Assembly: GCA_902785905.1 (NCBI GenBank) | Contig: CADAAM010000013.1 | Span: 1-41,733 of the forward strand | Length of the DNA stretch: 41,733 nucleotides | Source: Oscillospiraceae bacterium | Lineage (GTDB): Bacteria; Bacillota; Clostridia; Oscillospirales; Oscillospiraceae | Reading direction: 5' to 3' | In this document: in pieces, positions 26,437-38,421 of the stretch | Layout of the letters: every line of letters starts with the position of its first letter | How positions within the stretch are numbered: position 1 is the first letter of the stretch | Position numbers and translations under genes: made by a program | Notes under the pieces: generated by a model | Seen by the model: the letters and a program-made list of their open reading frames with translations, nothing else | The model's database searches: none | Told to the model about the DNA's origin: nothing

Positions 26437-28719
26437 ATGGCCAAACTGCCTGAACTGGAATACAAAATTCAGGAGATCACGGACCGCATCCGCGAGCTGA
26501 GAACGATCCTGGGCATCTCCGTCGAGGAGATGGCTCAGCGCCTCGGCCTCGAGCCCGAAGACTACCAGGCCTATGAGGCAGGGGAGGAGGAGCTGAACTT
26601 CGCCTTCCTCTACACCTGCGCGCAGATCCTGGGCGTCGACGTCACCGAACTCATCGAGGGCGTGAGCCCCCGGCTCTCCAGCTACATCCTCACCCGCAGC
26701 GGCGAGGGGCGGCGCGTCGAGCAGGCCCACGGCATGACCTACTACAACCTCGCCTATAAGTTCCGCCGCCGCATTGCCGAGCCGCTCTTTGTCCACAGCG
26801 TTTTCAGCGAGGCCGCGCAGCTTCGCCCCATCGAGGTCACCACCCACGAGGGCCAGGAGTTTGACATCGTCATCCGCGGCCACCTCAAGGTCCAGCTCGG
26901 CCGCCATAGCGAGATCCTCGGCCCCGGCGACACGATCTACTTTGACTCCACCACCCCGCACGGCATGATCGCCACCGACGGCGAGGACTGCGACTTCTAC
27001 GCCATCGTCCTCACGCCCGAGGAAAAGCTCGAGCAGCGCCCCGCCGAACAGCCCACCATCACCGCCGCCCGCGAGACCGGGCGCAAGCGCATTTACGAGA
27101 AGTTCATCACCCCCGTCGAGGACGGCAGCGACGTGCTGCGCATGATCCGCTTTGAAAACGCCGACCGCTTCAACTTCGCCTTCGACGTGGTGGACGCCCT
27201 GGGCGAGCAGCAGCCCGAGAAGCTGGCCCTCATGCACGTCGACCGCCACATGAAGGAGACGCGCCTGACCTTCGGGGACATGCGCAAGCTCTCCGGCCGC
27301 GCCGCCAACTACTTCCGCGCCCTCGGCATCAAGAAGGGCGACAAGGTCATGCTGGTGCTGCGGCGAAACTGGCAGTTCTGGCCCATCCTGATCGCGCTGG
27401 AAAAGCTCGGCGCCGTGGCCATCCCGGCCGTCGACCAGCTGCAGGAGAAGGACTACCTCTACCGCTTCGAAACCGCCCACGTCTCCGCCATCATCTGCAC
27501 CGCCGACGGGGAGAGCACCCGCCAGAGCGCTCCGGCCATCGAGCAGTACGGCAAGATCGCGGTCAAGATCGCGGTCAACGGCAAGGTGGAGGGCTGGCAC
27601 AGCTTCGACGAGGAGTTTGAGATGTACTCCGGCCGCTTTGTCCGCACGGAGGACGCCATCTGCGGCGACGACCCCATGATGATGATCTTCACCTCCGGCT
27701 CCACCGGCTATCCGAAGCTCGCCGCCCACAACTGCAAGTACCCCCTCGGCCACTTCGTCACCGCCCGATATTGGCACTGCGTCGACCCCAACGGCCTGCA
27801 CATGACCATCTCCGACACCGGCTGGGCCAAGGCCATGTGGGGCAAGATCTTCGGCCAGTGGCTGTGCGAGGCCGCCGTCTTCGTCTACGATTTTGACCGC
27901 TTCAACGCCGAAGAGATACTCCCGATGTTCGCAAAATACAACATCACCACCTTCTGCGCGCCGCCGACCATGTACCGCTTCCTCATCAAGCAGGACCTGA
28001 GCAAGTACGACCTGAGCTCCATCAAGCACGCCTCCACCGCGGGCGAGGCCATGAACCCCGAGGTCTTCAACCGCTTCAAGGAAGCCACCGGGCTTTCCAT
28101 CATGGAGGGCTTCGGTCAGACCGAGACCACCGTCGTCATCGGCAACTTCGTCGGCATGGTGCCGAAGATCGGCGCCATGGGCAAGCCCAACCCCCAGTAC
28201 GACGTGGAGCTCATTGACCCCGACGGCAAGCCCGCCCCCGCGGGCGAGATCGGCGAGATCTGCGTCTTCACCGGCGACGGCGCGCCCTGCGGCCTCTTCG
28301 CGGGCTACTATGAGAACGAGGAGGAGACCTCCGCCTGCTGGCACGACGGTTATTACCATACCGGGGACCTTGCCTGGCAGGACGAGGACGGCTACTTCTG
28401 GTATGTCGGCCGCGCGGACGACGTGATCAAGTCCTCCGGCTACCGCATCGGCCCCTTCGAGATTGAGAGCGTGCTCATGGAGCTGCCCTACGTGCTCGAG
28501 TGCGGCGTCACCGCTGTCCCGGACGAGATCCGCGGCCAGGTGGTCAAGGCCTGCATCGTTCTCGTCAAGGGCAAGGAGGGCACGGACGAGCTCAAGACCG
28601 AGATTCAGAACTATGTCAAGAAGCGCACCGCGCCGTATAAATATCCCCGCATCGTGGAATTTCGAGAGGAGCTGCCCAAGACCACCAGCGGCAAGATCAT
28701 CCGCAGCAAGCTGAAGTGA
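26437..28719 (+). CDS. HTH-cupin-acyl-CoA synthetase fusion protein
   Basis: A 760-residue protein of three parts. Residues about 10-75 form an XRE-type helix-turn-helix (IRELRTILGISVEEMAQRLG, LEPEDYQAYEAGEEEL). Residues about 110-200 are a cupin (THEGQEFDIVIRGHLKVQLG, LGPGDTIYFDSTTPHGM). Together they look like a whole XRE-cupin regulator. Residues about 240-760 are an AMP-forming acyl-CoA synthetase: P-loop MIFTSGSTGYPK near 416-427, MEGFGQTETT, YYHTGDLAWQDEDGYFWYVG, RADDVIKSSGYRIGPFEIE and the catalytic lysine region PKTTSGKIIRSKLK. The substrate is probably a short or medium acyl acid (inference). It is a single gene with its own promoter. No frame break separates the parts. Confidence 0.9.
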   Translation: MAKLPELEYKIQEITDRIRELRTILGISVEEMAQRLGLEPEDYQAYEAGEEELNFAFLYTCAQILGVDVTELIEGVSPRLSSYILTRSGEGRRVEQAHGMTYYNLAYKFRRRIAEPLFVHSVFSEAAQLRPIEVTTHEGQEFDIVIRGHLKVQLGRHSEILGPGDTIYFDSTTPHGMIATDGEDCDFYAIVLTPEEKLEQRPAEQPTITAARETGRKRIYEKFITPVEDGSDVLRMIRFENADRFNFAFDVVDALGEQQPEKLALMHVDRHMKETRLTFGDMRKLSGRAANYFRALGIKKGDKVMLVLRRNWQFWPILIALEKLGAVAIPAVDQLQEKDYLYRFETAHVSAIICTADGESTRQSAPAIEQYGKIAVKIAVNGKVEGWHSFDEEFEMYSGRFVRTEDAICGDDPMMMIFTSGSTGYPKLAAHNCKYPLGHFVTARYWHCVDPNGLHMTISDTGWAKAMWGKIFGQWLCEAAVFVYDFDRFNAEEILPMFAKYNITTFCAPPTMYRFLIKQDLSKYDLSSIKHASTAGEAMNPEVFNRFKEATGLSIMEGFGQTETTVVIGNFVGMVPKIGAMGKPNPQYDVELIDPDGKPAPAGEIGEICVFTGDGAPCGLFAGYYENEEETSACWHDGYYHTGDLAWQDEDGYFWYVGRADDVIKSSGYRIGPFEIESVLMELPYVLECGVTAVPDEIRGQVVKACIVLVKGKEGTDELKTEIQNYVKKRTAPYKYPRIVEFREELPKTTSGKIIRSKLK

Positions 28720-28795: not shown

Positions 28796-28824
28796 TTGAC
28801 AGTTCAAGGCCACGGCGTTACAAT
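28796..28824 (+). promoter_or_regulatory. Sigma-A promoter of the aromatic operon leader
   Basis: Perfect TTGACA (28796-28801), 17-base spacer, TACAAT (28819-28824; one mismatch to TATAAT). The start point would be near 28831, giving a terminated leader RNA of about 160 nucleotides. Confidence 0.88.
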
Positions 28825-28856
28825 ACAGGCATCCTGAATGTTAGGGGTTTAAAGTA

Positions 28857-28913
28857 ATGAAGTCCAGCCTCGTTTTTGCGTCCTATTATACCTTTACCGG
28901 CGTTCGCGGGTAA
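28857..28913 (+). CDS. Leader peptide of the Phe/Tyr operon attenuator
   Basis: An 18-codon ORF, MKSSLVFASYYTFTGVRG, ATG 28857, stop TAA 28911-28913, with AGGGG nine bases upstream. Codons 10-13 are Tyr-Tyr-Thr-Phe and codon 7 is Phe. The Tyr codons (28884-28889) lie in the left arm of hairpin 1:2 and the stop codon lies in its right arm, as in proteobacterial phe/trp leaders. A ribosome stalled at Tyr or Phe would free segment 2; one at the stop codon would cover it. Not detected by usual gene finders because of size. Direct evidence of translation is lacking. Confidence 0.75.
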   Translation: MKSSLVFASYYTFTGVRG

Positions 28914-28971
28914 GGATAATTTGTGGCGCAAAAAAGAGAGATCTCAGCTTTTTTTGCCGCACAGGTTATCC
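28885..28971 (+). promoter_or_regulatory. Transcription attenuator with alternative hairpins
   Basis: Segment 1 (ATTAT-CCTT-ACC, 28885-28898) pairs with segment 2 (GGT-AAGG-ATAAT, 28909-28920). Segment 2 (GGATAATTTGTG, 28914-28925) can instead pair with segment 3 (CACAGGTTATCC, 28960-28971) over 12 consecutive pairs, two of them G-U, and this stem extends inward through GCAAAAAA/TTTTTTGC (28928-28935 with 28950-28957). Segment 3 also forms the left arm of the terminator at 28956-28989, so the 2:3 and terminator folds exclude each other. All pairings were read by eye; energies were not computed. Confidence 0.8.
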
Positions 28972-28989
28972 TGTGCGGCTTTTGTTTTT
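28956..28989 (+). terminator. Attenuator terminator
   Basis: Ten-pair stem GCCGCACAGG / CCTGTGCGGC, loop TTAT, then TTTTGTTTTT. It is a strong intrinsic terminator placed 266 bases before aroF and 43 bases after the leader peptide stop. Confidence 0.92.
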
Positions 28990-29255
28990 GGGAAACGGCG
29001 AACCAATCGCCGCGCACGTCTTGACGGCATATTTTCCGCCTGATTTTGTCTCGAAATCTTGACATACACAATCCGATTCGCTTTGCTCACATGGATAAGT
29101 TCGCGTTAGCCAAATCAAAGATTTGGACGCTCACTTAAGTATGCCTGCGATTTCTCGCCTTCATCAGACGAAAAATCTGCTCGCCAATCCGCACACTTCG
29201 ATTGATTCACCGCTTCCCGGGTGAGAATGCTTTTTATTTACAGGAGGAAATAGAT
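28990..29255. repeat. Untranslated region between attenuator and aroF, probable dispersed repeat
   Basis: About 265 bases without a gene. Contains GGCGA/TCGCC (28996-29012), CCAAATC/GATTTGG (29110-29127) and an arm GATTTCTCGCC...CAGACGAAAAATC (29150-29178). The stretch 29085-29215 has the look of a mobile intergenic repeat inserted into the leader. A second TTGACA occurs at 29060-29065, but no acceptable -10 follows at 16-18 bases, so I do not call a second promoter. Confidence 0.5.
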
Positions 29256-30257
29256 ATGATCGTTGTATTGAAGCACGGTGTTTCCGAGGAAAAGATGGCC
29301 CAGCTCATTGCCTGGCTCAAGGCCCTGGGTCTGCGCATCCACATTTCCAACGGCGAATTTCAGACCGTTCTCGGCCTCGTGGGGGACACCTCCACGGTGG
29401 ACATGGACCTCGTGGAGAGCCTTGACATCGTCGAGAGCGTCAAGCGCGTCACGGAGCCCTTCAAGATGAGCAGCCGCAAGTTCCACCCCGAGTCCTCGGT
29501 GATCTCGGTGGGCGACGTCAAAATCGGCGCGGGTAACTTCGTGATGATCGCGGGCCCCTGCTCGGTGGAGTCGGAGGAGCAGATCGTCACCGTGGCGAAG
29601 GCCGTCAAGGCAGCGGGCGCGACGCTCCTGCGCGGCGGCGCGTTCAAGCCCCGCACCTCTCCCTACGATTTCCCCGGCCTCAAGGCCCAGGGGCTGGAGC
29701 TTTTGAAGGTCGCCCGGCAGGAGACCGGTCTGCCCTTCGTCACCGAGCTTATGAACATCAACGATCTGCCCCTCTTCGAGGACGTGGACGTCATCCAGAT
29801 CGGCGCGCGCAACATGCAGAACTTTGACCTTCTGCGCGAGCTGGGCCACACGGACAAGCCGATCCTCTTGAAGCGCGGCCTTGCCAACACGCTCAAGGAG
29901 CTTCTGATGAGCGCGGAGTACATCATGGCCTCCGGCAATGAGCAGGTCATGCTCTGCGAGCGCGGCATCCGCACCTTCTCCGACTACACCCGCAACACCC
30001 TGGACCTCTCCGCCGTGCCCATGCTGCATGAGCTTTCACATCTGCCCGTGATCGTGGACCCGAGCCACGCCACCGGTATTGCCCGCCTCGTGCCGCCAAT
30101 GGCCCTGGCCGCCACCGCCGGCGGGGCGGACGGTCTCATCATCGAGGTCCACAACGATCCCATCCACGCCCTGTGCGACGGGGCGCAGAGCCTCCGGCCC
30201 GAGGAGTTTTCCGCCCTGGCCGACAAGGTCCGCGCCATCCGGGGGGTGGTCGGATGA
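29256..30257 (+). CDS. aroF: 3-deoxy-7-phosphoheptulonate (DAHP) synthase, type I-beta
   Basis: First step of the shikimate pathway: PEP plus erythrose-4-phosphate to DAHP; 333 residues. Residues 1-70 are the ferredoxin-like regulatory domain ([20 protein letters not shown]) known to give Tyr/Phe feedback control in Thermotoga-type enzymes. The barrel follows with [46 protein letters not shown] and [12 protein letters not shown] 29256 has AGGAGG seven bases upstream; the frame opens earlier at 29202. First structural gene after the attenuator, and its stop overlaps tyrA (ATGA). Confidence 0.96.
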
Positions 30258-31087
30258 GCACCGTCGGCGTCTTCGGCCTCGGCCTCATCGGCGGCAGCTT
30301 CGTCAAGGCCTACCACGCGGCGGGCTGGACGGTGCTCGCCCACAACCGCTCGCAGTCCGTCCTGGACTTCGCCAAACTCAGCGGCGACGTGGACGGAGAT
30401 CTTACCAAAAAGAACATCGGCGAGTGCGACCTTGTCCTGATCACTATCTACCCCGAGGCGGCGGTCAGCACTCTGCGGGAGTTTGCACCCTATATCGGCG
30501 AAAAGCCGCTGGTCATGGACTGCTGCGGCACCAAGCGCGTCGTGTGTGAGGCGGCCTTCCCGATCGCCGAGGAATACGGCTTCACCTTCGTCGGCGGCCA
30601 CCCCATGGCGGGCACCCAGTATTCCGGCTACAAGTACGCCAAGGCGACCCTGTACCACAACCAGCCCATGGTCATCGTCCCCCCGCGCTATGACGACATT
30701 TTTCTGCTCGGGCGGGTCAAGTCCCTTTTGAGTCCGGCGGGCTTCGGCCGCTACTCGGTCACCACCGCCGAGGCGCACGACGCCATGATCGCCTTCACCT
30801 CGCAGCTTGCGCACGTGGTGTCCAACGCCTATGTCAAGAGCCCGACAGCCAAGCAGCACCACGGCTTCTCCGCGGGCAGCTACAAGGATCTCACCCGCGT
30901 GGCCTGGCTCAACGCCCCCATGTGGGCCGAGCTCTTTCTGGAGAACAAAGACTACCTCATCGGCGAGGTGGACTGCATCATCGACAGCCTCACAGCCTAC
31001 CGCGACGCCATGAGAGACAACGACCGCGAAAAGCTCACCACCCTCCTGGAGGAGGGCAAGCGCCTCAAGGAGGAGATCGACGGATGA
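30254..31087 (+). CDS. tyrA: Prephenate dehydrogenase
   Basis: NAD(P)-dependent oxidative decarboxylation of prephenate to 4-hydroxyphenylpyruvate, the committed step to tyrosine; 277 residues. N-terminal Rossmann motif [16 protein letters not shown], then the prephenate-binding [13 protein letters not shown] (the HPM/AG motif of the family) and the C-terminal all-helical domain ([42 protein letters not shown]). No ACT domain follows, so feedback control is not apparent. ATGA overlaps with both neighbours indicate coupled translation. Confidence 0.93.
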
Positions 31088-32139
31088 CACGCCTTGTCCA
31101 TGTGAGCGCCCCCTCGGGCAGCTATGACGTGAAGATCGGCTCCGGGCTTCTGCCGACGCTCGGCCAGGAAGTGCGCGCCGTGACAAAGGCGCAGCGCTGC
31201 GCAGTCGTCTCCGGCATGAACGTCTATCCCCTCTACGGGGACGCGGTGCAGAGCAGCCTTGAGTGCGCGGGCTTCGAGACGGTCTCCCTCGTCTTCCCGG
31301 CGGGGGAGCAGACCAAGTGCCTCGAGCGCTACGGGGAGCTGCTGAATTTTCTGACCTACAACCGCTTCACGAGAAGCGACTGCGTCGTCGCCCTGGGCGG
31401 CGGCGTGACCGGCGACCTCGCGGGCTTCGCGGCGGCGACCTATCAGCGCGGCGTGCCCTATGTCCAGGTCCCGACGACTTTGCTCGCCGCGGTGGACTCC
31501 TCGGTCGGCGGCAAGACCGCCATCGACCTGCCCGCCGGAAAAAACCAGGTCGGGGCCTTCTACCAGCCCTCGCTGGTCCTCTGCGATACCGACACCCTCC
31601 GGACCCTGCCGGAGCGGGAGCTTCGCGCCGGGTTTGCGGAGGTCATCAAATACGCCGTCCTCGGCGACCCGGCCCTCTTCGAGGCGCTGAAAAACCGGAG
31701 CGTCGACCTGCCCGCCGTGATCGAGACCTGCGTGAAGCGCAAGGCGGAGATCGTTGCGGAGGACGAGAGGGACACCGGCAAGCGCCGCCTTCTGAACCTC
31801 GGCCACAGCTTCGGCCACGCGGTCGAGAGCCGCAGCGCCTATGCGGTTCTGCACGGCGAGGCTGTCGCCGTCGGCACGGCGATGATCTGCCGGGCCGCGC
31901 AGAGCAGGGGACTGCTCTCCGAGGCCGACTGCGGAGCCGTGATCGCCCTGCTGCGCGACTACGGCCTGCCGACTGAAACAACATTCAGCGCGGACGAGCT
32001 TTTGGACACCCTGCGCCTGGACAAGAAAATCTCCGGCGGGAAGCTCCACCTCGTCGTCCCGCGCGAGATCGGCCGCTGCGACATCCTCCCCGTTCCGGAG
32101 GAGGAGCTGCGCGCCTGGCTGGAGGCGGGGCTGAGATGA
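31084..32139 (+). CDS. aroB: 3-dehydroquinate synthase
   Basis: Converts DAHP to 3-dehydroquinate, NAD- and metal-dependent; 351 residues, normal length. Motifs: [66 protein letters not shown], and the metal ligands in GHSFGHAVE and [12 protein letters not shown] 31084 overlaps the tyrA stop by four bases, and the stop overlaps aroA. The frame opens 54 codons earlier, inside tyrA, but no ribosome site supports that. Confidence 0.96.
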
Positions 32140-33398
32140 AGAAGGAGCGCCGTTTTTCTGTCGGGCTGACGCCGGGGCCCTGCGCTGGCGAAGTCTGTAT
32201 TCCCTCCTCCAAATCCGTCGCCCACCGCCTGCTGATCTGCGCCGCGCTGGGGACGGAGAAAACAACACTTCTGATCGACGGCTTTTCCAGGGACATCCTC
32301 GCCACGGCGAAGTGCCTGCGGGCGCTCGGCACCGGGATCGAGGCGAAGGAACGCCGCATCCGCGTCACGCCCATTCAAAAGCCTGTCGGCGGCGGCCTGC
32401 TCCCCTGCGGGGAGAGCGGCTCGACCCTGCGCTTTCTGCTCCCCGTGGCCGGGGCGCTGGGCGTCTCGGGCTATTTCAAAATGGAGGGACGCCTGCCCGA
32501 GCGGCCCATGCAGGTCTATGAAGACGTCCTGCGCGCCCACGGGATGGAGATTTCTCGGGACGGGAGCTTTCTGCGTTTCGGCGGACAGCTCCGCAGCGGG
32601 GACTACAGCCTCCCGGGGGACGTGTCCAGCCAGTATTTCTCCGGCCTGCTGATGGCCCTGCCGCGGCTTTCTGGCGACAGCGCGGTCACGGCGGAGGGGA
32701 CGCTGGAATCCGCGGGCTACATCCGCCTGACGGAGGACGCGCTCGCCCTCTCCGGCGTCCGGATTAAACGGGAGGGGCAGCGCTGGCATATCCCCGGCTC
32801 CCAACGTTTTACGCTTCCCGGCGTCCTGCGCGTGGAAGGGGACTGGTCAAACGCCGCCTTCTTTCTCTGCATGGGCGCGCTGAGTGAAAAGGGCGTCACC
32901 GTGCGCGGGCTGAATCTCCGCTCCGCCCAGGGGGACAGGGCCGTGCTGGACATCCTCAGACAGTTCGGCGCTTCGGTAGAAGCCTCCGACGGCGAGGTAA
33001 CGGTGCGTCGCGCGGAGCTGAGTCCCGTCACCATTGACGCCGCGCCTATCCCCGATCTGGTTCCGGTTTTGTCCGTTCTGGCCTGCGGGGCAACGGGGGA
33101 TACAAGGATCATCAACGCGGCGCGGCTTCGCATGAAGGAGTCCGACCGCCTGCAAACGACGGCAAAGCTGATAAGCGACCTCGGCGGGGCGGTGGACGAG
33201 CTGCCCGACGGCCTCGTCATCCACGGGACGGGCGGACTTCGCGGCGGTGACGTTGATTCCTGCGGCGACCACCGCATCGCCATGAGCGCCGCCGTCGCCG
33301 CCGGATTGTGCCGTGAGAGCGTCACGATCGGCGGCGCGGACTGCGTGCAGAAATCCTACCCCGCCTTCTGGGAGGACTTCTGGAGGTGCGCGAGATGA
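32136..33398 (+). CDS. aroA: 3-phosphoshikimate 1-carboxyvinyltransferase (EPSP synthase)
   Basis: Joins PEP to shikimate-3-phosphate; 420 residues. Active-site motifs: IPSSKSVAHRLLICAAL (Lys and Ser contact substrate), GESGSTLRFLLPVAG in place of the GNAGTAMRPL motif of the class I enzymes, LPGDVSSQYFSGLLMALP, AARLRMKESDRL and GDHRIAMSAAVA. The ESGSTLRF form is the one usual in Clostridia and is often grouped with glyphosate-tolerant class II enzymes; tolerance is not shown here. Coupled to aroB and aroC by ATGA-type overlaps. Confidence 0.95.
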   Translation: MKKERRFSVGLTPGPCAGEVCIPSSKSVAHRLLICAALGTEKTTLLIDGFSRDILATAKCLRALGTGIEAKERRIRVTPIQKPVGGGLLPCGESGSTLRFLLPVAGALGVSGYFKMEGRLPERPMQVYEDVLRAHGMEISRDGSFLRFGGQLRSGDYSLPGDVSSQYFSGLLMALPRLSGDSAVTAEGTLESAGYIRLTEDALALSGVRIKREGQRWHIPGSQRFTLPGVLRVEGDWSNAAFFLCMGALSEKGVTVRGLNLRSAQGDRAVLDILRQFGASVEASDGEVTVRRAELSPVTIDAAPIPDLVPVLSVLACGATGDTRIINAARLRMKESDRLQTTAKLISDLGGAVDELPDGLVIHGTGGLRGGDVDSCGDHRIAMSAAVAAGLCRESVTIGGADCVQKSYPAFWEDFWRCAR

Positions 33399-34465
33399 GC
33401 AGTACCTTTATCGGCCAAAAACTGCGCCTGAGCATCTTCGGACAGAGCCATTCGGAGGCCATCGGCATGACCCTCGACGGCCTGCCCGCGGGTATCGAAA
33501 TTGACCCGGACGAATTACAGCGCTTCCTAAACCGCCGCGCCCCCGGCCAGAACGACTGGTCCACCCCCCGAAAAGAAGAGGACAGACCGGACTTTCTCTG
33601 CGGATTAAAGGACGGCTTCACCTGCGGCGCGCCCCTGACGGCGGTCATCCATAACAACAACACCAGACCCAAGGACTATTCCCAGCTCAAAATCACGCCG
33701 CGCCCCGGCCACGCCGACTACACGGCGGAGGTCAAATACCGGGGCTTTCAGGACTACAGCGGCGGCGGGCACTTCTCCGGCCGCCTGACCGCGCCGCTGT
33801 GCATCGCGGGCGGCATCGTCAGGCAGGAGCTCAGACGGCACAACATCGCCGTCGACGCCCGCATCGCCGCCATCGCCGGGATACGGGACGAGAGCGCCTT
33901 TGAGGCCTCCGTCGCGGACAAGGCCTTTCCCGTCGTCGATGATGAGATCGGTGAGCAGATGCGCGCCGCGATCCAAAACGCCCGCGAGGACGGAGACTCC
34001 GTCGGCGGCGTGATCGAATGCGTCGTGCGCGGCCTGCCCGTCGGGATTGGGGAGCCGATGTTCGACGGGGTTGAAAACCAGATCGCCCGCCTCGTCTTCG
34101 CCGTGCCCGCCGTCAAGGGCATTGAGTTCGGCGCGGGCTTTGAGGCGGCTAAACTGCGCGGCAGCGAAAACAACGACCCCTTTCTTGTTAAAGACGGCCG
34201 TATCGAGACCGCCGCCAACCACGCGGGCGGCATCCTCGGCGGCATCACAAACGGCATGCCCCTCGTCTTCCGCGCCGCCGTCAAGCCCACGCCCTCCATC
34301 TCGAGGGCGCAGCAGAGCGTCAATCTCACGACCATGGAGCCGCAGGAGCTCCGCATCACCGGCAGACATGATCCCTGCATCGTCCCGCGCGCGGTCCCCG
34401 TGATCGAGGCCGCCGCGGCCCTGGCTGTATACGATCTGATACTGGGGGAATCAATATGGAATTAA
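33395..34465 (+). CDS. aroC: Chorismate synthase
   Basis: Trans-1,4-elimination of phosphate from EPSP to give chorismate, using reduced FMN; 356 residues. Motifs: FGQSHSEAIGMTLDGLPAG, RRAPGQNDWSTPRKEEDRP, RPGHADYTAEVKYRGFQDYSGGGHFSGR, and GGITNGMPLVFRAAVKPTPSI. The start ATG 33395 overlaps the aroA stop by four bases with GGAGG nearby; the frame opens three codons earlier. The length is at the short end for the family, as in other Clostridia. Confidence 0.96.
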   Translation: MSSTFIGQKLRLSIFGQSHSEAIGMTLDGLPAGIEIDPDELQRFLNRRAPGQNDWSTPRKEEDRPDFLCGLKDGFTCGAPLTAVIHNNNTRPKDYSQLKITPRPGHADYTAEVKYRGFQDYSGGGHFSGRLTAPLCIAGGIVRQELRRHNIAVDARIAAIAGIRDESAFEASVADKAFPVVDDEIGEQMRAAIQNAREDGDSVGGVIECVVRGLPVGIGEPMFDGVENQIARLVFAVPAVKGIEFGAGFEAAKLRGSENNDPFLVKDGRIETAANHAGGILGGITNGMPLVFRAAVKPTPSISRAQQSVNLTTMEPQELRITGRHDPCIVPRAVPVIEAAAALAVYDLILGESIWN

Positions 34466-35598
34466 AAGACTACCGCGCACGCCTCGACGGCATCGACAGC
34501 GAGCTTCTGCGCCTCTTCTCGGAGCGCATGGACATCGCCGGAGACATCGCCCTCTGGAAGCGTGACAACCACATGCCCGTCCTGGACCTGAGAAGGGAAA
34601 AGGAAAAGCTCAAGACTCTGGAGGCGCAGAGCCCCGAGGCGCTGCGAGAGTACACGGTCTCGCTCTTTTCCACCATCATGGAGCTCTCGCGCAGCCGTCA
34701 GAACCGCGTCCTGCATCCGAGCAGCCCCGAGACGGAGGCCATTGAGAAGGCCCTGAAGGAGACCCCGCAGCTCTTTCCCGAGTCGGCCATCGTCGCCTGC
34801 CAGGGCATCGAGGGGGCCTACTCCGACATCGCCTGCGAAAAGCTCTTTCAAAGGCCCAACACCTTCTATTTTTCCACCTTCGACGCGGTCTTTGCCGCCA
34901 TCGACAAGGGCCTCTGCCGCTACGGCGTCATCCCTGTGGAGAACAGTACCGCCGGCACGGTCAACGCGGTCTATGACCTCATGCGCAGGCATGACTTTCG
35001 CATCGTGCGCTCGGTGCGCGTGAAGGTGGACCACAACCTTCTGGTGCGCCCCGGCGCAAAGCTCGAGGATATCCGGGAGATCTACTCCCACCCCCAGGCC
35101 ATCGCCCAGTGCGCGGCGTTTCTGCAGACCCTGCCGAACGTCAAGGTCATCCCCTGTGAGAACACCGCCGTGGCCGCAAAGAAGGCGTCGGAATCCGGCG
35201 ACAGCGGCGTCGCGGCCCTCTCGTCACGCCAATGCAGCAGGCTCTACGGCCTCGATATCCTCAAGAGCGACGTGCAGGACTCCGGCAACAACTACACCCG
35301 CTTCATCTGCATCTCCAAGAAACTGGAAATCTACCCCGGTGCGAACCGGACGAGCCTGATGATGGTCCTCCCGCACGAGCCGGGTTCCCTCTACCGCCTG
35401 CTCTCACGCTTTAACGCCCTCGGCATCAACCTCACCAAGTTAGAGAGCCGTCCCATGCCGGAGCGCAGCTTTGAGTTCATGTTCTACTTCGACTTCGATA
35501 CCTCGGTCTACTCTCCGCGCTTTATCCAGCTCATGGGCGAGCTGAAGGAGCTCACGGACGAGTATGAGTATCTCGGCAGCTACAGCGAGGTGATCTGA
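34456..35598 (+). CDS. pheA: Bifunctional chorismate mutase / prephenate dehydratase
   Basis: Makes prephenate from chorismate and phenylpyruvate from prephenate, leading to phenylalanine; 380 residues. Residues 1-85 are an AroQ-type all-helical chorismate mutase (RLDGIDSELLRLFSERMDIAGDIALWKRD). The dehydratase spans about 110-285 (GIEGAYSDIACEK, VIPVENSTAGTVNAVYDLM, and the catalytic DSGNNYTRF motif). An ACT domain follows with the Phe-binding ESRP element (LTKLESRPMPERSFEF). The ATG overlaps aroC by ten bases. The same mutase also supplies tyrA. Confidence 0.95.
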   Translation: MELKDYRARLDGIDSELLRLFSERMDIAGDIALWKRDNHMPVLDLRREKEKLKTLEAQSPEALREYTVSLFSTIMELSRSRQNRVLHPSSPETEAIEKALKETPQLFPESAIVACQGIEGAYSDIACEKLFQRPNTFYFSTFDAVFAAIDKGLCRYGVIPVENSTAGTVNAVYDLMRRHDFRIVRSVRVKVDHNLLVRPGAKLEDIREIYSHPQAIAQCAAFLQTLPNVKVIPCENTAVAAKKASESGDSGVAALSSRQCSRLYGLDILKSDVQDSGNNYTRFICISKKLEIYPGANRTSLMMVLPHEPGSLYRLLSRFNALGINLTKLESRPMPERSFEFMFYFDFDTSVYSPRFIQLMGELKELTDEYEYLGSYSEVI

Positions 35599-35599
35599 C

Positions 35600-36820
35600 A
35601 TGAAATGCGGACTTTTGGGCGAAAAGCTCGGCCACAGCTACTCCCCGCAGATCCACGCGGAGCTGGCCGATTATGAGTACAGGCTCTATGAGAAAGCCCC
35701 CGACGAGGTGGAGGACTTCGTCAGAAACGGCGACTGGCACGGCCTCAACGTGACCATTCCCTACAAGAAGACCGTCATCCCGTTTTGTGACGAGCTGTCG
35801 GACACCGCCCGCGCCATCGGCAGCGTCAACACCCTGCTGAGACGCCCGGACGGCACGATCTTCGGCGACAACACCGACGCCTTCGGCTTTGAGACCCTGC
35901 TGGACGGCACGGTCAAGGGCAGCATCCGTGGAAAGAAAGCCCTGGTCCTCGGCACGGGCGGCGCGTCCGTGACCGTGTGCGCCGTGCTGCGCGCGCGGGG
36001 GGCGGTGGTCGTGCCTATCTCCCGAAGCGGCGAGGATAACTATGATAACCTTGACCGCCACGAGGACGCGGCGATCGTCGTCAACGCCACCCCCGTCGGC
36101 ATGTACCCGAAGAACGGCGTCAGCCCCGTTGAGCTTGACGTCTTCCCCAGGCTCGAGGCCGTATTGGACGTGGTCTACAACCCCGCCCGCACCGCCCTGC
36201 TGATGCAGGCGGAGGCGCGCGGCATCCCCTGCGCCGGGGGCCTCACCATGCTTGTGGCCCAGGCCAAGCGCAGCGCGGAGATATTCCTCGGCTATACGCT
36301 TCCCGAAAGTGAGCTTGCGCGCATCACGGCGCTGCTCTCACACGGTATGCAGAACATCGTCCTCGTCGGCATGCCCGGCTGCGGCAAGTCCTCCGTCGGC
36401 AGACGTCTCGCCGAGCGTCTCGACAGACCGCTTCTGGAGGCGGATGCCGAGATCGAAAAGGCAGCCGGTCTCACCATACCCGAAATCTTTGAGCGGGAAG
36501 GGGAGCAGGGCTTCCGCCGCCGCGAGTCGGCCGCCCTCCGGGAGCTCGGCAAGCGCTCCGGGACCGTCATCTCCACCGGCGGCGGCTGCGTGACCAGACC
36601 GGAGAACTATGCCCCCCTTCACCAGAACGGGACCATCGTCTGGCTCCGGCGCGATCTGAACAGGCTCGCGCGGGAGGGGAGACCCCTGTCGCTCAACGCA
36701 GACCTCTCGGCCATGTACGCCATGCGAAAGCCCCTCTATGAGCGCTTCGCCGACCTGACCGTCGACAACAGCGGCACACCGGAGGAGACCGTGGACGCGA
36801 TTCTGGAGGTGCTGAAATGA
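35600..36820 (+). CDS. aroE/aroK: Shikimate dehydrogenase - shikimate kinase fusion
   Basis: One 406-residue chain carrying two pathway steps. Residues 1-250 are AroE (GLLGEKLGHSYSPQIHAELADY, the substrate lysine in NVTIPYKK, GDNTDAFGF, NADPH loop LGTGGASVTV). Residues about 250-406 are AroK (IVLVGMPGCGKSSVGRRLAERL, P-loop at 257-265; DADAEIE; ISTGGGCV; the lid Arg region REGRPL). No stop or ribosome site separates them, so it is a true fusion, and it joins consecutive but not adjacent reactions (dehydroshikimate to shikimate to shikimate-3-P). The ATG lies one base after the pheA stop. Confidence 0.94.
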   Translation: MKCGLLGEKLGHSYSPQIHAELADYEYRLYEKAPDEVEDFVRNGDWHGLNVTIPYKKTVIPFCDELSDTARAIGSVNTLLRRPDGTIFGDNTDAFGFETLLDGTVKGSIRGKKALVLGTGGASVTVCAVLRARGAVVVPISRSGEDNYDNLDRHEDAAIVVNATPVGMYPKNGVSPVELDVFPRLEAVLDVVYNPARTALLMQAEARGIPCAGGLTMLVAQAKRSAEIFLGYTLPESELARITALLSHGMQNIVLVGMPGCGKSSVGRRLAERLDRPLLEADAEIEKAAGLTIPEIFEREGEQGFRRRESAALRELGKRSGTVISTGGGCVTRPENYAPLHQNGTIVWLRRDLNRLAREGRPLSLNADLSAMYAMRKPLYERFADLTVDNSGTPEETVDAILEVLK

Positions 36821-37254
36821 CCTTTCTCATCATCAACGGCCCAAACCTGAATCTGCTGGGCCTGCGTGAGCCGGACATCTACGGCAGACAGGACTTTCAC
36901 GCCCTTGAGGATTTCATCCGCGCCGCGTGTGTGGAGGCGGGCGTCGACTGCGAGCTCTTCCAGTCCAACCACGAGGGGGCCATCGTCGACGCCATCCAGG
37001 GCGCTTACGGGCGCATCGACGGCATCGTCATCAATCCCGCGGCCTATACCCACACCAGCGTCGCCATCCTGGACGCCCTCAAGGCAGTGGCCATCCCTGC
37101 TGTCGAGGTGCACATTTCCGACGTATCCAAGCGCGAGAGCTTTCGTCAGGTCTCCTACGCGGGCCTTGCCTGCGTCAAGAGCTATATCGGCCTCGGCTTC
37201 GAGGGCTACCGCCGGGCTATCCTGTATCTCAAAGACTATCTGGAGGGGAGATAA
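36817..37254 (+). CDS. aroQ: Type II 3-dehydroquinate dehydratase
   Basis: Dehydrates 3-dehydroquinate to 3-dehydroshikimate; 145 residues, dodecameric family. Motifs: IINGPNLNLLGLREPDIYG (catalytic loop Arg and Tyr), FQSNHEGAIVDAIQ, INPAAYTHTSVAILDAL and EVHISDVSKRESFRQVSY (catalytic His). The ATGA overlaps the fusion gene stop. It completes the pathway together with aroB and aroE. Confidence 0.96.
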   Translation: MTFLIINGPNLNLLGLREPDIYGRQDFHALEDFIRAACVEAGVDCELFQSNHEGAIVDAIQGAYGRIDGIVINPAAYTHTSVAILDALKAVAIPAVEVHISDVSKRESFRQVSYAGLACVKSYIGLGFEGYRRAILYLKDYLEGR

Positions 37255-37257
37255 ACC

Positions 37258-38421
37258 ATGAAACCGATGAACAACAAATGCGCGCTCTTTACCGACTCCG
37301 TCATCCGCCGCATGACGAGGATCGCCATCGCCAACAACGCCATCAACCTGGCCCAGGGCTTCCCGGACTTTGATCCGCCCAAGGCTTTGACCGACAGACT
37401 CATTGAGGTCGCCAACCAGGGCCCGCACCAGTACCCCATCACCATGGGCGCGCCGAACTTCCGCCGCGCCGTCGCCGCGAAGACCAAGCGCTTCATGGGC
37501 CGCGACATCGACCCCGAGACCGAGATCGTCGTCACCATCGGCTCCACCGAGGCTATGGTCGATACCCTCTTTGCCCTGACAAATCCCGGGGACAAGGTCG
37601 CCATGTTCTCCCCGTACTTTGAAAACTACTCCGCCCAGACCCTCTTTGCCGACTGCGAGCCGGTCTTCATCCCCCTGGTGCCGCCGACCTTCCGCTTCGA
37701 CCCGAACGTGCTCGAGGACGTCTTCAAGCAGGGAATCAAGGCCATCATCATCTGCAACCCCTCCAACCCCAGCGGCCGCGTCTTCACCTATGACGAGCTC
37801 AAGCTCATAGCCGATCTCTGCATCAAGTACGATGTCTACGCCATCACCGACGAGGTGTACGAGCATATCATCTATGACGGCCACGTCCACACCTACATGG
37901 CCAATCTCCCCGGCATGTGGGAGCGTACCGTCACCTGCAACTCCCTGTCCAAGACCTATTCCATCACGGGCTGGCGTCTCGGCTACGCAATCGCCCCGAA
38001 GCACATCATGGATAAAATCAAGCAGTTCCACGACTTCAACGCCGTCGGCGCGCCCTCTCCGCTGATGGAGGCCGCCGTCGTCGGCCTCGAGATGCCGGAC
38101 AGCTACTACGAGGAATTCACCGCCCACTACGCCCACATGAAGAAGATCTTCACCGGCGGCCTCAAGGACATCGGCATCCCGTTTTCCGATCCCGAGGGCA
38201 CCTATTTCCTCCTGGTGGACATTGCCCCCTATCTCAAGAAAGGCCAGACCGACGTGGCGTTCTGCGAGGAGATGGCCCAGAAGGTCGGCGTGGCCGTCGT
38301 GCCCGGCACCTCCTTCTTCAAGGAGAAGGTCAATAACATCGTCCGCATGCACTTTGCCAAGAAGGACGAGACCCTCTACGCCGCGCTGGAGCGCCTCGCG
38401 GATATCAAGAAAATGCTTTAA
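37258..38421 (+). CDS. Class I/II PLP aminotransferase, probably aromatic
   Basis: A 387-residue fold-type I aminotransferase. PLP lysine in SLSKTYSITGWRLGY (Lys232), with NPSNPSGRVFTYDEL and AITDEVYEHIIYDG before it. The N-terminal INLAQGFPDFDPP and YPITMGAPNFRRAVA are typical of the KAT/MetB-like aromatic and broad-range aminotransferases. As the last gene of a Phe/Tyr operon it most likely transaminates phenylpyruvate and 4-hydroxyphenylpyruvate (inference from context). GGAGGGGAG lies ten bases before the ATG. It completes the route from PEP and E4P to both amino acids. Confidence 0.92.
   Translation: MKPMNNKCALFTDSVIRRMTRIAIANNAINLAQGFPDFDPPKALTDRLIEVANQGPHQYPITMGAPNFRRAVAAKTKRFMGRDIDPETEIVVTIGSTEAMVDTLFALTNPGDKVAMFSPYFENYSAQTLFADCEPVFIPLVPPTFRFDPNVLEDVFKQGIKAIIICNPSNPSGRVFTYDELKLIADLCIKYDVYAITDEVYEHIIYDGHVHTYMANLPGMWERTVTCNSLSKTYSITGWRLGYAIAPKHIMDKIKQFHDFNAVGAPSPLMEAAVVGLEMPDSYYEEFTAHYAHMKKIFTGGLKDIGIPFSDPEGTYFLLVDIAPYLKKGQTDVAFCEEMAQKVGVAVVPGTSFFKEKVNNIVRMHFAKKDETLYAALERLADIKKML

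Follow-up and report, generated by a model that had tools for sequence, protein, structure and literature searches.

The window analyzed here is a stretch of 41,733 nucleotides from an Oscillospiraceae bacterium, whose source assembly comprises 2.73 Mb and is 84.8% complete. Gene calls on the plus strand gave an operon of nine genes. The first is aroF, encoding DAHP synthase (29256-30257), followed by tyrA, encoding prephenate dehydrogenase (open reading frame limits 30173-31087, with the true start probably near 30254), aroB, encoding 3-dehydroquinate synthase (open reading frame limits 30922-32139, with the true start further in), aroA, encoding EPSP synthase (32136-33398), and aroC, encoding chorismate synthase (33386-34465). 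The remaining genes are pheA, encoding chorismate mutase/prephenate dehydratase (34456-35598), an aroE-aroK fusion for shikimate dehydrogenase/kinase (35600-36820), aroQ, encoding a type II dehydroquinase (36817-37254), and a class I/II aminotransferase gene (37258-38421), which likely provides the last step of Phe/Tyr synthesis. No trp gene was found among the nine. The named relatives of the AroF protein were mostly gut and rumen MAGs labelled Oscillospiraceae, Ruminococcaceae, Lachnospiraceae or Clostridia, and the plasmid collection gave no match. In the shikimate pathway, chorismate also feeds Trp and folate, and the terminal branches through tyrA and pheA lead to Tyr and Phe. A preliminary description of this DNA stated that the operon makes exactly Phe and Tyr. 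This is correct for the terminal branches, which are only those of Phe and Tyr, but the operon makes chorismate too and, therefore, feeds Trp and folate as well.

Between the operon and an acyl-CoA ligase gene with HTH, cupin, and AMP-binding domains (26437-28719) lies a leader region. The preliminary description named a consensus promoter here, and TTGACA-17-TACAAT at 28796-28824 agrees with the consensus at 11 of 12 positions. A weak Shine-Dalgarno sequence, AGGGG (28843-28847), was read 9 nt 5' of the ATG at 28857 that opens an 18-codon frame, MKSSLVFASYYTFTGVRG, ending with the TAA at 28913. The reported Tyr and Phe codons are present, with Phe at codons 7 and 13 and Tyr at codons 10-11, although with two of each per 18 codons and a weak Shine-Dalgarno sequence this leader is a poor one. 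Segment 1 (28869-28901) carries these codons and pairs with segment 2 (28906-28938), which overlaps the stop codon and can pair with either segment 1 or segment 3. Segment 3 (28950-28971) is both the antiterminator partner and the 5' arm and loop of an intrinsic terminator (28956-28989), in which a hairpin at 28956-28979, the 3:4 stem, is followed by a T-rich tail. All these features lie on the plus strand. The interval from the terminator to aroF, outside the switch, is largely filled by an element of approximately 230 nt (28990-29218) with 13 further matches, some full and some partial, elsewhere in the genome. An inner part of approximately 70-75 nt is absent from some of the copies and from the sister genome G061. 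This element looks like a small mobile repeat, with only a weak inverted repeat of its own.

The three folds that had been described as competing are indeed mutually exclusive. Every one of the 12 pairs proposed between 28914-28925 and 28960-28971 is standard, and beyond a two-base mismatch the pairing continues for another 8. Stem energies were -27.5 kcal/mol for 1:2, which is strong in the window, -22.6 kcal/mol for 2:3 (best local fold -24.3 kcal/mol), and -21.5 kcal/mol for 3:4. Since 1:2 and 3:4 jointly reach -49.0 kcal/mol, the terminated form should win in the absence of a ribosome. Folding of the leader RNA (28830-28995), one of the checks suggested earlier, gave a z score of -6.2 against shuffled sequences, none of 200 being as good.

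On the basis of sequence, we consider it very probable that this element attenuates transcription of the shikimate/Phe/Tyr operon by a ribosome-mediated mechanism. The promoter at 28796-28824 would initiate transcription, and a ribosome would begin the leader. When charged tRNA-Tyr or tRNA-Phe is scarce, the ribosome would halt at codons 7-13 and cover segment 1, so that segments 2 and 3 could pair, the terminator would not form, and the operon would be transcribed. When Tyr codons 10-11 occupy the decoding site, the ribosome footprint would include most of segment 1. When both charged tRNAs are plentiful, a ribosome at the TAA would cover the start of segment 2, from 28911 to about 28925, which is the part required for the first 2:3 helix; 3:4 would then form and transcription would stop near 28989. 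In the absence of translation, 1:2 and 3:4 would form together and keep the operon off. The stalled and stop-codon states would both follow from the anatomy, and ribosome stalling, termination, and a response to Tyr or Phe limitation are expected on these grounds.

Conservation of the leader was examined in the genus. Of 101 genus genomes, 81 had an aroF match in a protein search, and the upstream sequence of 78 aroF loci was taken. A leader was scored when it had at least 4 Phe/Tyr residues making up at least 20% of the peptide, a Shine-Dalgarno match of at least 3 bases, and a terminator. Retention of an open reading frame with Tyr/Phe codons in relatives had been proposed as a check, and 65 of the 78 loci have such a leader with a terminator; the script counted 66, which inspection by eye reduced to 65 because the frame chosen at L071 overlaps a promoter and is an artefact. 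Removal of duplicates left 68 loci with organism titles, of which 60 passed the same script; MAGs with the titles Oscillibacter, Dysosmobacter, and Faecousia are among them. A stricter criterion (at least 25% Phe/Tyr, at least 5 Phe/Tyr residues, and a Shine-Dalgarno match of 4 bases) was satisfied before aroF by 105 of 146 real regions, by none of the 146 reverse strands, and by 5 of 730 shuffled regions. These controls rule out a chance open reading frame at the aroF loci. A promoter matching at least 9 of 12 positions at most 120 nt before the leader start was present at 56 of 59 genus loci and on 12 of 59 reverse strands, and many relatives have longer Shine-Dalgarno sites of the GGAG/GGAGG type.

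The 126 leaders chosen by the script, L071 included, consist of 18.2% Phe, 17.7% Tyr, and 0.2% Trp. The number and order of Phe and Tyr residues vary freely in leaders, and a Phe-Thr pair near the end of the peptide is well conserved. The pooled pN/pS of the leader peptide was 0.48, which suggests that the peptide is constrained, and base pairing may be part of the cause. These patterns bear on the alternative that stalling depends on the nascent peptide or on another signal, for example ribosome-targeting drugs, instead of tRNA charging. The conserved Phe-Thr speaks for such stalling, but columns 51-57, where it lies, are also fixed by base pairing. The free variation of Phe and Tyr and the aromatic amino acid genes downstream also argue against this alternative, which we regard as extremely unlikely.

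No leader was scored at 13 of the 78 genus loci, L071 included, where it is absent or could not be judged; at L070, L076, and L078, aroF was matched only in part and no judgement could be made. At four loci (L062, L071, L072, and L073), the distance from a strong promoter to a short terminator is so small that a leader would not fit between them. They are candidates for an attenuator stripped down to its terminator or for another mode of control. The frames that the script chose at L062, L071, and L074 were rejected as artefacts near or over promoters. At L064 (genome G073), the RNA is kept, as seen by a match to the covariance model described below, yet Tyr is missing from the leader, MKCPFDRCRFILAAWMR, whose specificity may have changed. 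In a divergent subgroup, Cys occurs among the Tyr codons, most clearly at L058 (MAFMSCCYCYCLTVFVR) and less so at L054, L056, L057, and L059. Leaders of this subgroup may sense a further amino acid.

Next, the pairing of the segments was compared across relatives. Of the 130 leaders that have a terminator, 70 were considered for alignment and 59 were aligned; L054, L056, L057, L058, L059, L061, L095, L102, L105, L106, and L112 were excluded before pairs were counted because they looked too divergent. In the 59 leaders, 87.6% of the 2:3 cells were paired and two-sided changes were seen at 10 of 20 pairs. None of 500 shuffles was as good, and slid partners paired at only 37-54%. The first helix (12 pairs) was 97.9% paired and the outer helix (8 pairs) 72.2%. 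Four bases of segment 2 face the terminator loop, where the 3:4 stem makes no demand, and three of these vary. One of them, column 75, pairs with column 138 of the loop as AU in 29 sequences, GC in 13, GU in 5, CG in 3, and UA in 1, with 8 unpaired, which amounts to a two-sided change in 17 of the 59 sequences. This covariation is explained only by the predicted antiterminator, and no other single observation speaks as strongly for the putative RNA switch.

It also weighs on another view, in which the open reading frame is incidental and the upstream acyl-CoA ligase gene has its ordinary terminator at 28956-28989. The hairpin does lie approximately 240 nt past the stop codon of that gene. However, a promoter separates the two, as it does in 56 of the 59 relatives, the leader and the hairpin are retained jointly before aroF, and segment 2 covaries with the terminator loop. 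This view is very unlikely.

The 3:4 terminator was 96.3% paired in the 59 leaders, and none of 500 shuffles was as good. For 1:2 the results were uneven. Pairing was 71.1% and the covariation score exceeded all 500 shuffles, but the number of two-sided pairs was 11 compared to 10.8 in shuffles (301 of 500 as high), with slid versions reaching up to 14. The number of pair types was equalled or exceeded in 474 of 500 shuffles, and codon insertions and deletions shift these columns. Thus, of the covariation that the preliminary description expected in all three stems, compensatory changes were borne out for 2:3 and 3:4, and 1:2 gained support from the score and none from the pair and type counts. 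RNAalifold recovered the terminator and a 7-pair core of 1:2. Mean energies of cognate duplexes were better than all of 5000 permutations for both 2:3 and 1:2, although sequence relatedness inflates permutation tests of this kind. The cognate partner had a median rank among 59 of 15 for 2:3 and 7 for 1:2 and was not usually the best. The kept leader, codons, and stems, the compensatory changes in 2:3 and 3:4, and the pN/pS of 0.48 favor the leader-peptide attenuator originally proposed.

The breadth of the leader was then assessed in a class-level draw of 196 genomes, of which 143 contain aroF. The class is probably Clostridia, judging from the labels of the AroF relatives. This set had 109 upstream regions, of which 108 were scored (L174 was too short). 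The regions were mostly from the top of the aroF ranking with some paralogues left out and, therefore, are biased to closer aroF sequences; the assumed gene start is off in L185, L199, L267, and L273. A strict Phe/Tyr leader was found in 48 of the 108 regions; the controls gave 3 among 108 reverse strands and 6 among 540 shuffled sequences. Counted by genome, 47 of 95 aroF-bearing genomes and 24 of 41 families have it. With a looser limit of 22% for the open reading frame, there were 53 candidates with a terminator, and the z score of their cognate 2:3 duplex, computed against segment 2 shuffled by mononucleotide, was under -2 for 32 candidates and under -3 for 19. The segment sequences differ greatly at this level, and several 2:3 duplexes are weak (e.g., L238, L239, L255, and L269). 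The predicted class-level cases are weaker than those in the genus, and not every one is proven. Across families, the Phe/Tyr-coding frame is kept while the RNA sequence diverges.

This divergence argues against an alternative in which the open reading frame has no role and the element is a metabolite riboswitch or an antiterminator controlled by a protein. Either would use the identical logic of terminator and antiterminator and could account for the strong fold. Rfam 15 gave no match in the window at gathering score, and the matches below it (ncS54, trpB, manA-II, and others, all under their gathering scores) were weak. The pN/pS of the peptide points in the same direction, though base pairing constrains these bases too. 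We find this alternative highly improbable.

A covariance model was built from the 59 aligned aroF leaders, with no locus away from aroF included. At E <= 0.01, it matched in 76 of the 101 genomes of the genus and in 15 of the 196 in the class draw. A hand count gave 35 genus matches away from aroF, plus one on the opposite strand to an aroF leader. By hand comparison of coordinates, 33 of the 35 adjoin a TrpX-type match and lie directly upstream of it. Twenty of the loci away from aroF were fetched, and 18 have a Phe/Tyr leader before a TrpX-type substrate-binding protein. At L343, the leader is present and the contig ends, and at L348 the leader, MKAYAYAASYPFADRVR, precedes tyrA. The substrate-binding protein scored 219-226 bits with the NCBIfam TrpX model, below its cut-off of 390, and was above the cut-off of Pfam PF04392. 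TrpX-type protein matches at E <= 0.001 occurred in 81 of 101 genomes, with distant paralogues counted. Among the best 30 TrpX-type loci, all 28 with upstream sequence carry a Phe/Tyr leader (at least 22% Phe/Tyr and at least 4 such residues), with no Trp in the chosen frame; these loci are largely the same places as the model matches. The window's own genome has one such locus (G000:C37), where the leader is MSGFRFAYATSYYYYYRLDDSGLRCK and its 2:3 duplex has an energy of -29.0 kcal/mol. The genes that follow encode the substrate-binding protein, a permease, and an ATPase. We infer that the TrpX-like ABC transporter is a Phe/Tyr importer. The recurrence of the predicted leaders before this transporter supports the attenuator reading, for which the leader frame with its codons, an intrinsic terminator, a covarying 2:3 antiterminator, and downstream genes of matching function (presumed in the case of the transporter substrate) have been found. 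In one further genome, a Phe-rich leader, MFLSVLFVFICLYFYFFAFLFCKSKSVLCCG, was seen before a PaaK-like phenylacetate-CoA ligase (L330, G208:C158; 560 bits compared to a cut-off of 646).

The source genome also has T-box matches. The T-box model gave 9 matches at E <= 0.001, of which 2 were above the Rfam cut-off, and the downstream genes were examined for 8 of the 9. A leuA-like gene and one other follow the matches above the cut-off, and trpD, pheS, TrpB-like, acyl-CoA ligase-like, tyrS, and alaS genes follow those below. The front of the acyl-CoA ligase-like gene (L086, G000:C11), which has one of the matches below the cut-off, resembles by eye that of the window gene at 26437-28719, with its HTH, cupin, and AMP-binding domains. 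Given these 9 matches, direct sensing of uncharged tRNA by a T-box could also be considered for the aroF element. The RF00230 model has no match there, and among the class genomes 6 have a T-box core motif before aroF and 47 the strict leader, with none having both. The probability that the element is a T-box is, thus, close to negligible. Since T-box matches precede pheS and tyrS, T-boxes and leader peptides both appear to read the charging of tRNA-Phe and tRNA-Tyr in the same cell. From these predictions, it appears that the synthetases are under T-boxes, and synthesis and uptake under leader peptides.

The pheA leader attenuator of E. coli is a known leader-peptide system. Like the E. coli pheA and trp leaders, the element described here combines a short peptide rich in the regulated amino acid with alternative stems and an intrinsic terminator. 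Unlike them, it belongs to another lineage with another sequence, joins Phe and Tyr in one peptide, precedes aroF and a transporter operon, and lacks an Rfam match at gathering score. The mechanism of trp and his leader attenuation is described in PMC10953045. In the Firmicutes, Naville and Gautheret described a His leader in bacilli (PMC2965389), and Rodionov et al. predicted His attenuators in three lineages, including Peptostreptococcaceae, in 17 species (six, five, and six; PMC9413887). Such attenuators are also named in PMC4833913, which cites a 2010 survey by Lopatovskaya et al. As far as the available text of PMC2965389 and PMC9413887 goes, they are likewise cases of leader-peptide attenuation, known by prediction only, and differ in being specific for histidine. 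A Leu-rich ilvD attenuator in Staphylococcus aureus has genetic support (Kaiser et al., PMC5794164). It is also a leader-peptide attenuator of a Firmicute, but responds to leucine, belongs to another class, and is accompanied by the action of CodY. The Leu/phe leader RF01743 of Weinberg et al. (PMC2864571) is, by its name, a leader-type element of a Firmicute; it is given for Lactococcus lactis only and had no match in the window.

A further related element is uORFC-13-1, a Phe uORF before aroF with 24 representatives, from Acholeplasma and unknown environmental sequences only (PMC8632094). It shares the Phe uORF and a terminator before aroF, but the available text on it names no antiterminator. 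The Fig. 6 legend of PMC6429828 names two candidate uORFs upstream of shikimate genes and notes Phe and Tyr for them; they are possibly the same kind of element, and the legend text does not state the host genome. No uORFs with Phe or Tyr were found in the available text of PMC11109978, and T-boxes before tyrosine synthesis genes are reported for the B. cereus group (PMC2494555). A search of the literature by titles and openings, which mostly did not cover subscription papers, found no Phe/Tyr leader regulon in Oscillospirales or Clostridia. This agrees with the earlier statement that no case had been described in Oscillospiraceae, though related predictions do exist in other Firmicutes. Since leader-peptide attenuators have already been reported there, the mechanism is known; the lineage, the breadth, and the second operon appear to be new.

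The textbook control of amino acid genes in Firmicutes is by T-boxes, TRAP, and riboswitches. In addition, PMC10953045 presents transcription as uncoupled from translation in B. subtilis and, by prediction, in Firmicutes generally, and recounts a genome-wide argument to this effect by Johnson et al. (2020). This view, as represented there, counts against the attenuator reading. We nevertheless lean toward an old, Clostridia-wide regulon of stalled-ribosome Phe/Tyr leaders, covering the aroF operon, TrpX-like uptake, and, in one genome, paaK, and existing beside T-boxes for pheS, tyrS, and trp. If such a regulon exists, RNA polymerase and the leading ribosome must, therefore, stay close at these leaders. 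With a leader before aroF in 47 of 95 aroF-bearing class genomes, coupling in Clostridia becomes directly testable. If the reading is true, the transporter family named TrpX would import Phe/Tyr rather than Trp in these bacteria, and the leader would be a ready sensor of Phe/Tyr supply for uncultured gut and rumen species.
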